IMG/VR virus record: IMGVR_UViG_3300008217_003979
Location: 1-22,850 of that record
Reading direction: 5' to 3' (one strand)
DNA length: 22,850 bases
DNA from: a virus
Shown here in pieces: positions 10,181-14,976 of this stretch (the first letter of the stretch is position 1; each line of letters starts with the position of its first letter). Both the position numbers and the translations under genes were made by a program. The notes under the pieces are model-generated. The model worked only from the letters and a program-made list of their open reading frames with translations. It did not search any database and had not been told where the DNA came from.

Positions 10181-10387
10181 CTAGGCACTCGTCTCGCGGG
10201 CCGGCTGCTCACGGGCCACACTCAGTTGCATTCGCAATCTTTCGTGTGCAAGTTGGTCTCGAAACCCCTCACGGGTGAGCCCGATCCACCAACTCGACGC
10301 GGGCCGAAAATGGCGCGGTGCCGGTGGCATGGCACTGTTGGCGTTATAGAAATACGGGTCGTCTCGACCAGGCTGCTCAGGAGGCAT
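10181..10387 (-). CDS. Small protein after the fiber, unknown function (68 aa)
   Basis: The start at 10387 lies 11 bases inside the end of the fiber gene, with GGAAG about ten bases upstream. A longer frame from 10567 would overlap the fiber by 190 bases and has an Arg/Pro-rich, non-coding look. The protein has a Pro-rich start with Tyr and Asn (DDPYFYNANSAM), an aromatic segment (SSWWIGLTREGF) and a charged helix (RDQLAHERLRMQLSVAREQ). The stop is two bases before the nozzle start. It may be a fiber-assembly or linker protein; this is from position only. Confidence 0.6.
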   Translation of the reverse strand: MPPEQPGRDDPYFYNANSAMPPAPRHFRPASSWWIGLTREGFRDQLAHERLRMQLSVAREQPARETSA

Positions 10388-12395
10388 TAGCCGCTGCTTC
10401 CAAGGCGGCAATGCGTGACGCGAGTGTCTGATTCTCCGACACCAGCTCTTGCACGGCTGCCAGCGCCACCGAGGCAAGGTCCTTCGCACCAATGCCTGGA
10501 TCAAAGACCTCCGGGTCGCGCCCGAGCGAAAATAACGTATACCACTCCTGGGCCGTGGGTCCGGCATGGGTTTCCCCCGCCTTTCCTGGAGGGAGGTCTT
10601 TCTGGGTATACACCCCGGTGTTCAAATTAGTGAGCTGATCCAGCACGCTGCCGCCGATATGTTCCTGGATGGTCCCGAGATATTCCTTCGCGTCCTCGTC
10701 GGAGGCATCCGTCCAGACACCCGCCGCCGTCAAAGACGCGGTGGCGTTCGTGCCTGATGATGAGTTGTTCATGGTGCCGAATTTGAACGATGAATCGGTC
10801 GTTCCAGCACTAACGTCGTCAAAGTTAAAGTCAACCCGATGAGTATTCCGAAACGTCGCCCCATCATCACGCGCATACACATGGATGCGACCTGGCTGGT
10901 CATTATCGCCAGGAGAGGCAGAGGCTTGACGAATGTTGATTGTGCAGCCGTTATCGTCGTCTCGTACCGACTCAAAGATTGCAACGTGATTCGAGGTCGT
11001 CGCTGCTGCCAAGATCCCGTCACTCGTCGTAACCCCGGTCCCGCACAGTGTGCGCCCAGCGGTCGTCAAGGTGGAATCCAGTGTGGTGGCCCCGGTGACA
11101 TCCAGCGTCCCGCCGAGGTCGACATTCGTCGGCAGACGGGCATTCGCAATCGTGCCCGCGAGTTCACCCGCCGGAACAGCGGTCATGTTCGCCGCGCTCA
11201 GGTCATCAATAATGGCCGAACGAAGTGGGCCGTTAATCTTCCCGTCTGTCCCGACCAGCGCCACGTTGCCGGTGCCGACATTGATGCCCCCACCCACATC
11301 GAGGGAGGACGCGCCGGTCCCACTCACAGTTAAGCCGGTGAATTGGGGACTGTCTCCCGTGCCCACCCCGATACTGGTACGAAGCGTGGCTCCGCTTTCC
11401 GCGACTGGATCACCTGATCCATCGCCCACGATCATCTCGCTATCGGCCAGGACCGACATCGGTGTAATCGCCCCACTCCCACTCCCGAGCAAGACCCCTC
11501 CATCCGTTAGGGAGGAGACACCGGTCCCACCGTCTGTCACTGGGACATCCGTCCCGCCAGCCCGATAGATGGCATTTCCCTCAATCGAGACATTCCCGGC
11601 ACTCGCACGGGTCAGCGTCGTGTCGCTCGCATGACCTAATTCAATCCCAGTAAATTGCGGGCTATCTCCCGTCCCTACACCTACGCTAGTGCGGAGGGTC
11701 GCGCCACTCTCAGCTACGGGGTCGCCCGATCCGTCTCCGACAATCATTTCGCTGTCGGCCAAAACGGCCATCGGCGTAATGGCACTACTACCACTCCCCA
11801 GGAGAACGCCGCCGTCAGTGAGCGACGACACCCCGGTGCCCCCATCGGTGACCGGCACATCGGTGCCCCCTGCGCGATAGATGGCGTTGCCTTCAATGGA
11901 CACATTGCCTGAACTGGCACGGGTCAGGGTGGTATCGCTCGCATGGCCGAGATTGATCGCCGTGAACTGGGGGCTATCTCCGGTCCCGACACCAATACTC
12001 GTCCGTAACGTCGCGCCACTTTCAGCCACCGGGTCCGTCGTGCCATCACCGACAATCATCTCTCCGTCGGCGAGGACAGCCATTACCGTTACCGCACTCG
12101 TTCCATTTCCGAGGAGGACTCCTCCATCGGTGAGCGAGGTCGCCCCGGTACCACCCTTGGAGACGCCAACGGCGCTACTCAGATTCGCAGGGTCGATATA
12201 GTAGCTACCGGTTTGCCCATCGAGCTTGTCAGCGTCAAGGTTCGCCACCAGGGCCGCACCAGACACCACCGCAAACGGGGCATTCGTGCTGCGACTGAAA
12301 GTATGCAACCCGGTGATCGTGTAGGCATTCTCCTCAGTGACAAGCGTATTGCCACTTAGATCCGCATCGGTGTTGGTGACTTCAATATCGGCCAT
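10377..12395 (-). CDS. Tail fiber or spike with repeats and C-terminal S74 chaperone (672 aa)
   Basis: Probable trimeric receptor-binding fiber. Residues 1-80 form an N-terminal part with the ADKLDGQTGSYY motif frequent in fibers. Residues 81-354 are two full and one partial copy of a 104-residue repeat starting GGTG. A beta-rich, Gly/Ser/Thr-rich shaft and head follow. Residues 560-672 form an intramolecular chaperone of the peptidase S74 type. The catalytic pair is visible as S565 and K570 in SDEDAK, five residues apart as in phage endosialidases, followed by GPTAQEW and a final coiled coil (643-668). In that family the chaperone trimerises the fiber and then cuts itself off before the Ser. 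The receptor cannot be predicted. The stop overlaps the next gene by 11 bases. Confidence 0.9.
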   Translation of the reverse strand: MADIEVTNTDADLSGNTLVTEENAYTITGLHTFSRSTNAPFAVVSGAALVANLDADKLDGQTGSYYIDPANLSSAVGVSKGGTGATSLTDGGVLLGNGTSAVTVMAVLADGEMIVGDGTTDPVAESGATLRTSIGVGTGDSPQFTAINLGHASDTTLTRASSGNVSIEGNAIYRAGGTDVPVTDGGTGVSSLTDGGVLLGSGSSAITPMAVLADSEMIVGDGSGDPVAESGATLRTSVGVGTGDSPQFTGIELGHASDTTLTRASAGNVSIEGNAIYRAGGTDVPVTDGGTGVSSLTDGGVLLGSGSGAITPMSVLADSEMIVGDGSGDPVAESGATLRTSIGVGTGDSPQFTGLTVSGTGASSLDVGGGINVGTGNVALVGTDGKINGPLRSAIIDDLSAANMTAVPAGELAGTIANARLPTNVDLGGTLDVTGATTLDSTLTTAGRTLCGTGVTTSDGILAAATTSNHVAIFESVRDDDNGCTINIRQASASPGDNDQPGRIHVYARDDGATFRNTHRVDFNFDDVSAGTTDSSFKFGTMNNSSSGTNATASLTAAGVWTDASDEDAKEYLGTIQEHIGGSVLDQLTNLNTGVYTQKDLPPGKAGETHAGPTAQEWYTLFSLGRDPEVFDPGIGAKDLASVALAAVQELVSENQTLASRIAALEAAANAS
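11334..12155 (-). repeat. Tandem 104-residue repeats inside the fiber gene
   Basis: Copies start at 12155, 11843 and 11531; the first two are 312 bases long and the third is a partial copy of 66 codons. Copies one and two match at 91 of 104 residues by hand comparison. At DNA level the copies are much less alike, because most codons differ at synonymous positions (see findings). Confidence 0.85.
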
Positions 12396-12407: not shown

Positions 12408-12764
12408 TCATTGTCGACCGAGACCGATCGACTCCAGATACATAAGATACCGCCTCACATCGTCCTCTGTCGCCCGACCGCGTTCTGGGTCGAGTACAGG
12501 GCTGAGGAGTCCCGGGCTCCGCTGAAGGGCCCGCCACACATCGTCCTCTGTCCAACGTCCGGGCCGAGGCTCGCTTCCGCCACGACGGTTCCTCTCGTAA
12601 TTGCCTAATCCCTCCTGAAGATCCTCCACGGCCTCATTCCACTCACGATCATAATGAATCTGTAGCCGATTCGGATCGGGCGCAACAAGCGGATCCGCCG
12701 AGGTCGGCAGGCGTCCGGCTACGTCCCTGTCTGTTTGCGTGCCTCGTCGTCGTCGATAGGCCAT
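12408..12764 (-). CDS. Small charged protein, unknown function (118 aa)
   Basis: The protein is rich in Arg and Asp with a basic N-terminus (MAYRRRRG). It carries two related short segments, RWTEDDVWRALQRSPGLL at about 70 and RATEDDVRRYLMYLESIG near the end; both contain TEDDV followed by an Arg-rich helix, which suggests an internal duplication of a helical unit. Two bases separate it from the upstream stop. No family is recognised. Its position between neck genes and the fiber suggests a structural or assembly role, but nothing proves it. Confidence 0.65.
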   Translation of the reverse strand: MAYRRRRGTQTDRDVAGRLPTSADPLVAPDPNRLQIHYDREWNEAVEDLQEGLGNYERNRRGGSEPRPGRWTEDDVWRALQRSPGLLSPVLDPERGRATEDDVRRYLMYLESIGLGRQ

Positions 12765-12766
12765 CG

Positions 12767-13120
12767 TTACGCCTCGATATACACCAGCGACCCGTCCACC
12801 GACTGGCCGCCGCTGAGTTCCATGTTCAAGAGGGTGGCGTCGGAGGTTTCAAACCAGCCCACCGGATTGAACGGCAGCACGATGGTTTGTCCTGCTGTCG
12901 GTCCCATCTGCCCCGTCAAGGCCGTTCCGCCCGCCCCATCCTCGAAGCGAATCGTCACGGCTGTCCCCGTCATCGTGACAAACAGCGCCAGCACCCGGAT
13001 CTTCTTCCCGGTGACGGCAGCCACCAGCGTATTGTTCCCGCTCGTCGCCCCGTCAATGGCGGCCCGTTTCACAAGCTGGGCATCATGCGTATCCTGAAAA
13101 TCTTCCTGCTTCGACGCCAT
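12767..13120 (-). CDS. Second small beta-rich virion protein (117 aa)
   Basis: The start has a TAGGAG ribosome site that overlaps the stop of the upstream gene, so the two are coupled. After a charged 20-residue start the protein is a run of beta strands: GNNTLVAAVTGKKIRVLAL, then VTIRFEDGAGGTALTGQM, then a turn with NPVGWFET and a final SLVYIEA strand. This texture is widespread among small phage virion proteins near head and neck genes and suggests a jelly-roll-like fold. The exact role (decoration, head fiber or tail accessory) is not visible. It resembles the 133-residue protein after the capsid gene in composition but not in obvious sequence. Confidence 0.65.
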   Translation of the reverse strand: MASKQEDFQDTHDAQLVKRAAIDGATSGNNTLVAAVTGKKIRVLALFVTMTGTAVTIRFEDGAGGTALTGQMGPTAGQTIVLPFNPVGWFETSDATLLNMELSGGQSVDGSLVYIEA

Positions 13121-13129
13121 CAGGCGCTC

Positions 13130-13807
13130 CTATTCTGTATGGTAGTAGCGATAATCATACCCGGGCGGTCGGTCGCGGTTAAAACGCGCCATGCTCTGAA
13201 TCACCGGGCCGAACACCTGCATCCCGACCTCGGTAATCGAGGACACATCGTCATCTTTGCCTGTCCGTAACATCTTGACCGCAAACTGCGCGACGGCGAG
13301 TGCGGCCATGTCGGGGTAGGCAAACGTGCCCGCCGCCGTGATGTCGTCGGCCACCTTGAGCCCGTAATACCGCACGGTATGGGTCGCATCGGGAAGTGGA
13401 TCCCAGTAAATCAGCGTCCCGTTGGTGTAATACCGCCGGGGCCGTCCACTCGTTGTCGAATCAAACGCAATGGACGGAAACGTCGTCTCCTGCCCGTAGT
13501 GATCGCCGACCGGGCCGACCCGCTCAAGATCCCACGCCGGACGACCGGTGTCCGGGTCGATGAACTGGAGCCGGTCAATCCGAATCACACCCGTCGGGAA
13601 CGCCGTCGTTTCCGTACTCGCTGCCGTGGTCACCGTCGCCGCAGAGGAGGCCAACGCATTGGGCTGCAACGCCATCAGCGACTCGAAGTGGTCCTGCGAG
13701 GCATTAAGCGCCCGCAACCCGAGTGTGACCCCGGTTTCTCCCGACTGAAGCTGGAGTCCCCGGTCCAGAACTTCCATCGTGTTGAGCATGGACTGTCCGG
13801 TGGCCAT
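13130..13807 (-). CDS. Head-tail adaptor candidate (225 aa)
   Basis: Likely the ring protein that binds below the portal and connects it to the tail nozzle. Residues 1-45 form an N-terminal helix with a LNTMEVLDRGLQL heptad look. Residues 72-150 show the pattern seen in podovirus adaptor proteins: a VIRIDRLQFIDP strand, a WDLERV segment, then GRPRRYY, LIYWDPLPD and VRYYGL strands. Residues 163-210 are helical. The Tyr-rich C-terminus could reach into the next ring. It sits between the capsid genes and the tail genes. The call is by pattern and position; no catalytic motif is expected. An alternative is another neck or head-completion protein. Confidence 0.7.
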   Translation of the reverse strand: MATGQSMLNTMEVLDRGLQLQSGETGVTLGLRALNASQDHFESLMALQPNALASSAATVTTAASTETTAFPTGVIRIDRLQFIDPDTGRPAWDLERVGPVGDHYGQETTFPSIAFDSTTSGRPRRYYTNGTLIYWDPLPDATHTVRYYGLKVADDITAAGTFAYPDMAALAVAQFAVKMLRTGKDDDVSSITEVGMQVFGPVIQSMARFNRDRPPGYDYRYYHTE

Positions 13808-14331: not shown

Positions 14332-14976
14332 CTAGCTAAAGGCTTTGAGCGCGAACTCCCGCACCCGCTCATCCTTGCTCGTCTTGCAGTGACGCACCAT
14401 GCGCCCACGCGCCATGTTATAGGAGGAGCGTGACTCGGGCTTGAAGTTTGTCGCCCAGCCGTCCACCGGACACTGGAGCAGCCCTTTTTCCAGGTCCTCT
14501 GTGAGCGTATCGGGGATCGGCTCGGCCACCTTGGTCCACGGCGGACGGAACGCCACTGACTCGGGATCGCGTAACGAGACGGACAGCGGTTGGCGCTCGC
14601 CCTGGTCATCGAAATAGGTCGAGACTTCCCCCGCATCGGACGTGATCCCCCCACGATGGGGGCGTCCTTTTGCGTCCCAAGCGTGCATCGTCGGAAAGCG
14701 CGGCGCCCCTCGGGTCGCCATTTCCTGCCACTTCTCATATTCGCTGAGATACCGGGTAATCACCTGCCCGACTTTCTCCACACCCGCCCACGTCACCCCG
14801 CGATGCTTTTCGAGTTCCGCGAGTTCGTAGACTTCGCCCAGTACTTCCTGGACGGTCACGGGATTGACCCCTGTCGGGGTCGGCTCGCGCAACGCTGAGA
14901 CGGGCGACTCCCCGAGATGCTTGAGAAAGAACCGATTTTCTTCCAGCGAATAGCGAACTGGACGGAAAGACTCCAT
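14332..14976 (-). CDS. Conserved-looking head-region protein, unknown function (214 aa)
   Basis: The protein starts with a basic and aromatic segment (FRPVRYS), has helices at about 42-88 with many charged residues, a Gly/Pro/Trp-containing middle, and a C-terminal segment with C169, H196 and C197. The order CPVDGW...RHCKTS resembles a degraded zinc-finger pattern; with only one clear pair on each side I do not claim metal binding. The stop is two bases from the next ATG. The position between decoration and adaptor genes suggests a head or neck role. No family is recognised. Confidence 0.7.
   Translation of the reverse strand: MESFRPVRYSLEENRFFLKHLGESPVSALREPTPTGVNPVTVQEVLGEVYELAELEKHRGVTWAGVEKVGQVITRYLSEYEKWQEMATRGAPRFPTMHAWDAKGRPHRGGITSDAGEVSTYFDDQGERQPLSVSLRDPESVAFRPPWTKVAEPIPDTLTEDLEKGLLQCPVDGWATNFKPESRSSYNMARGRMVRHCKTSKDERVREFALKAFS

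Follow-up and report, generated by a model that had tools for sequence, protein, structure and literature searches.

The distal tail fibers of T-even phages are modular proteins whose tips are exchanged by recombination in conserved or glycine-rich motifs. Sharing of host-recognition modules between distantly related marine phages is also documented; in particular, the Alteromonas phages A5 and V22 have fiber parts that are common to phages with otherwise unrelated virion genes (PMC10579305). For repeated proteins, polyubiquitin provides a known case of near-identical proteins with large silent divergence, which has been explained by purifying selection and birth-and-death evolution (PMC10457151, with reference to Nei et al. 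2000 and Sharp and Li 1987); for Plasmodium, the same paper makes a case for concerted evolution.

The window analyzed here, a 22,850 nt stretch of marine phage DNA, contains a fiber-like gene with a repeat shaft that resembles each of these systems in part. Like the T-even distal fibers, it has a conserved upstream part, a variable C-terminal tip, and breakpoints in conserved glycine-rich shaft motifs, but no sequence relation to them was found, and its unit is a 104-aa module with the motif GGTG..LTDGGVLLGSG. As in Alteromonas A5 and V22, the module spans phages: the window's capsid protein was found, at 81-99% identity, in just 13 of 33 module-bearing records, and the module therefore also occurs in phages whose records, which may be fragments, contain no detectable relative of that capsid protein. 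Whole modules with chaperones move in the Alteromonas phages (PMC10579305), whereas single shaft units or cassettes within one gene move here. As with polyubiquitin (PMC10457151), protein-identical tandem repeats show large silent divergence, explained by purifying selection and slow copy turnover; the fiber units differ in that they are also swapped between unrelated phages and placed ahead of variable tips. Further, ubiquitin copies are usually more alike within a genome than between species, whereas only 13 of 52 units in multi-copy fiber genes have their nearest relative inside the same gene.

The fiber-like gene and its relatives

An earlier note had pointed to two places in the window that encode the same 28 residues. 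Both lie on the minus strand and read GGTDVPVTDGGTGVSSLTDGGVLLGSGS (28 of 28 residues identical), and the note's counts are exact: 23 of the 28 codons and 24 of the 84 bases differ, and every difference is silent. The repeat itself proved longer than the note had described. It is a 104-residue (312-nt) unit, of which the minus-strand fiber-like gene contains two complete copies and a partial third, and the 28-residue stretch straddles the unit boundaries. The features are as follows.

10377..12395, minus strand: fiber-like gene, 672 aa; open reading frame with an N-terminal region, a repeat shaft and a variable C-terminal tip
12156..12395, minus strand: residues 1-80, the N-terminal region and presumed virion anchor; identity to nine relatives is 71-99%
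11844..12155, minus strand: repeat unit 1, 104 aa, from repeat and HMM alignment; groups with unit 1 of locus L008
11532..11843, minus strand: repeat unit 2, 104 aa, from repeat and HMM alignment; groups with unit 2 of L008 (support 0.998)
11334..11531, minus strand: repeat unit 3, partial, 66 aa, then tip sequence; from repeat and HMM alignment
11787..11870, minus strand: the copy of the 28-residue stretch that is read first, spanning the end of unit 1 and the start of unit 2
11475..11558, minus strand: the other copy of the 28-residue stretch, spanning the end of unit 2 and the start of unit 3; 23/28 codons differ silently
11384..11791, minus strand: segment replaced by another cassette of the same class in the sister phage G019 (L039/L085); from codon alignment
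10530..10703, minus strand: possible S74-type C-terminal chaperone region; sub-threshold match to Pfam Peptidase_S74

The gene product is most likely a trimer-type tail fiber or appendage with a shaft of tandem 104-residue modules, judging by its sequence context: the window also encodes a portal, a terminase, a capsid protein and an SU10-type adaptor, which form the virion structural neighborhood of the gene; its tip is variable; and its C-terminus has a Peptidase_S74 match (E 0.0075, 17.0 bits) that falls under the 22-bit cut-off. Residues 1-80 would serve as the virion anchor. The N-terminal region and the units are common to relatives; over the C-terminal third, identity falls to 21-42% in most of them, although their capsid proteins align at 81-98% identity. 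The fiber gene had no PHROG match and no Pfam match above threshold, its tip matched no solved structure, and the AlphaFold model of three units was poor (pLDDT 46).

A scan of viral contigs identified 263 that encode relatives, from which the best 80 of 263 were taken, and three more scans used other family members; most of the compared loci are metagenome contigs. Two matches came from a genome collection, in Chloroflexi and SAR86 metagenome bins. A tblastn search of 50,697 phage records found no match to the whole fiber gene, and for one unit returned only a 30-residue match (E 0.6). The 104-aa module is thus far seen almost only in environmental phage contigs, and practically never in cultured phages. 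The middle of the L039/L085 fiber contains another module type, about 72 aa long (VLGDGVILIGDASGDP..GTIAVGVWNGTAVTAAYGGTG), which alternates with the 104-aa unit in related fibers.

Silent divergence and the age of the duplication

The protein identity of the units obviously reflects homology, and their silent sites have diverged to saturation. In particular, units 2 and 3 (66 codons) have 63 identical residues, 52 differing codons, a pS of 0.97, which is uncorrectable, and a dN of 0.03; units 1 and 2 (104 codons) have 91 identical residues, a saturated dS of 3.4 and a dN of 0.09. Across the window's units, dN ranges from 0.03 to 0.13 and dS is saturated because pS ranges from 0.71 to 0.97. 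The codon alignment that the earlier note had proposed therefore reveals neither low dS outside the 28 codons nor silent and replacement changes at neutral ratios.

Among codons for the same residue, 49/63 differ between units 2 and 3 and 55/91 between units 1 and 2, which is near randomization by codon usage. If each codon is sampled independently according to the codon usage of the phage, roughly 19 of the 28 are predicted to differ; the probability of at least 23 differing codons is 0.06 in this segment and 0.18 when the best 28-codon window is taken. Units 1 and 2 fall on the random-codon expectation. Units 2 and 3 lie slightly beyond saturation, with a P of 0.009 as a single uncorrected pair, and are unremarkable among 176 within-gene pairs. 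Foreign codon usage in a single unit was not seen, as GC3 is 0.62-0.64 in all three units.

Comparison with the related phage L008/G006 dates the duplication. In the tree, unit 1 of the window groups with unit 1 of L008 (support 0.948), as unit 2 does with unit 2, and the orthologous units have silent ratios of 0.70 and 0.73, compared to 0.93 for the window's own units 1 and 2 and 1.13 for its units 2 and 3. Because orthologous units are closer and pair by position, the duplication that gave units 1 and 2 predates the split of the window phage from L008. Moreover, unit 2 has 104/104 identical residues in the two phages with 50/102 codons changed. This unit-by-unit pairing and the identical unit 2 support one of the explanations raised in the earlier note, an old duplication under very strong protein constraint. 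The third module of L008 is only 49% identical to unit 3 of the window, which has no close positional partner there.

The fiber gene is not special in its silent rate, since the two phages show comparable silent divergence in their other genes (dS of 0.78 for the capsid gene and 1.1-1.7 for others). Most other genes of the window phage have a dS of about 0.8 or more against all relatives except the closest sister. When unit 2 is compared with its L008 counterpart, dN/dS is about 0.007, close to the 0.015 of the capsid gene, whose protein is 96-98% identical at a dS of 0.8-1.3 in five relatives. Concerted evolution by gene conversion was not detected: the window's within-gene copies are no closer than their L008 orthologues, and across multi-copy genes the copies are not homogenized, as the nearest relative of a unit more often lies in another gene than in its own. 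Overall, the comparisons reveal strong protein constraint, silent saturation and positional orthology of two units.

Exchange of cassettes, units and tips

The earlier note had also suggested that the repeats were assembled by exchange with other phage fibers, and for part of the array this is supported by a cassette swap in a sister phage and by the sharp breakpoints inside units across the family. Silent divergence between the sister phage G019 and the window is near 0.1 or lower in several genes, and likewise in the N-terminal region, unit 1 and tip of the fiber. Between approximately 11791 and 11384, it carries a different cassette of the same class (about 313 nt versus 406 nt), with near-identical flanks. 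The edges, which are identity ends mapped on the near-identical contig L002 and converted to window coordinates, lie within VLLGSG of unit 2 on the left and just before GVGTGDSPQFTG (near RTSIGVGTG) on the right.

Units are also gained and lost. L003 and L015 have approximately 97% identical DNA in units 1 and 2, yet differ by exactly one 104-aa unit; the junction is at GGTGAS/LTDGG, although the longest identical stretch between neighboring L003 units is only 11-13 bases. Between L052 and L056, codon identity jumps from about 50% to 100% at TDGGVLLGSG, and in several pairs the tips change behind conserved shafts.

In a set of 108 non-contained fiber genes, high identity ends sharply at 72 distinct points, of which 46 lie inside units, or about 42 after dropping mirrored ones. 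With mirrored events removed, unit phases 1-20 contain 16 breakpoints versus 9.0 expected from coverage (P 0.01), while phases 60-96 contain 2 versus 13.2 expected (P < 0.0001). The clustering is a strong lead rather than a measured hot spot, because not all of the events are independent of one another and the distribution had been inspected before the phase zones were set.

Outside the fiber gene, several observations concern its neighbors. The SU10-type adaptor gene (13130-13807, minus strand) is a single-gene mosaic between the window and G019, with 81% amino acid identity and a dS of 1.04, and its flanking genes have a dS of 0.03-0.13. An 18-nt indel near 13728 distinguishes the window from L002. 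Silent divergence from G019 is also raised (dS 0.50) at 14332-14976 (minus strand), beside near-identical genes. Between the fiber gene and the gene at 12767 lies a 118-aa open reading frame (12408-12764, minus strand) that was not found by protein comparison in nine relatives; G019 has only about 33 nt at its place. It has no phage-record match and contains an internal 31-nt repeat, and its TEDDV motif recurs in the protein encoded at 964-2799.

Explanations for the codon scrambling

The earlier note's other proposal was that silent divergence is actively favored, since identical tandem DNA would recombine and delete units. A sample of 53 dereplicated fiber genes, with 176 within-gene and 10,691 between-gene unit pairs, was scored by the ratio of observed silent codon differences to the expectation from the genes' codon usage. 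The mean ratio is 0.98 between genes and 0.86 within genes; in a gene-by-gene comparison over 49 genes, copies that share a gene differ less than copies from different genes (mean -0.054, median -0.04, Wilcoxon P 0.014), and their longest identical runs are longer (median 14 nt versus 11 nt). Selection against deletion is unsupported because copies within a gene are not more different than copies from different phages; the significant trend has the opposite direction. Several genes (L050, L066 and L022) contain younger copies with identical runs of 71-83 nt, and unit gain and loss persists between scrambled copies, as in L003 and L015. In favor of such selection are the slight excess in the window's units 2 and 3, a larger share of pairs with z > 2 within genes (2.8%) than between them (1.6%), and a tendency in 25 genes toward slightly greater differences between adjacent copies than between non-adjacent copies (P 0.067); the single-pair excess and the adjacent-copy tendency leave a small, weak residue. 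A literature search for selected codon scrambling in natural repeats returned nothing directly relevant. Taken together, selected scrambling is very improbable. We give an equally slim chance to a dedicated exchange system, in which the shaft units would steer crossovers to the GGTG..LTDGGVLLGSG joint and the first half-unit, and weak selection would keep neighbors silently dissimilar, favoring exchange between phages over exchange within the gene. No synonymous conservation that could mark a recombination signal was found at the joint motif: its columns are at the random level, and between genes silent sites are randomized at all 104 codon columns (column ratios of 0.79-1.11; 0.96-1.00 in 12-column windows).

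A sampling artefact could also enrich for diverged copies, as short-read assemblers collapse or break identical tandem repeats, so that only phages with diverged copies yield contigs. The predominance of metagenome contigs among the compared loci fits this account, as do identical runs that stop at 83 nt within genes and reach 150 nt between them. However, an assembly filter could only hide young duplicates and cannot create saturation; within-gene runs of 63-83 nt did assemble, and the window's three units recur unchanged in the separately assembled L002, making this an unlikely source of the pattern. Somewhat better placed, though still doubtful as a full account, is the import of unit 3, or of units 2 and 3, from another phage after the array had formed, which would render the age of the duplication irrelevant to the divergence of this pair. 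The G019 cassette over 11384-11791 and the missing positional partner of unit 3 in L008 are consistent with such an import. On the other hand, the unit 2 orthologue sits at the same place in L008, so that units 1 and 2 diverged in place, and a donor of unit 3 was not found (best match 79%). Import is more a component of the best explanation than a separate alternative.

That best explanation, which we consider very probable, is that the units are old, strongly constrained modules traded between phages, and that silent scrambling is therefore a side effect of their age and exchange rather than a selected trait. Strong purifying selection holds the amino acids of the units nearly fixed, while silent sites have been free for long enough to be randomized. 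The array is a mosaic whose units would be duplicated, lost and swapped by recombination between co-infecting phages; most breakpoints fall at the GGTG..LTDGGVLLGS joint and elsewhere in the unit's first half, and the block at phases 60-96 is kept intact. Variable tips are attached behind the conserved shaft, which probably acts as a recombination handle for tip replacement. Counting against this explanation are the small excess of units 2 and 3 over saturation, the adjacent-copy tendency, the partial dependence of the breakpoint events with zones set after inspection, and a fiber function that rests on the gene's architecture and the sub-threshold S74 match.

The fiber repeats are a good new example of known processes with an ordinary mechanism, rather than a new kind of system. 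They illustrate that even conspicuous silent divergence between repeats is not necessarily adaptive. Moreover, the fiber family is a natural data set in which the protein is frozen, silent sites are random and sharp breakpoints are numerous, so that module exchange can be mapped base by base because identity above the saturated background marks recent common descent, making the family a source of a useful recombination map.
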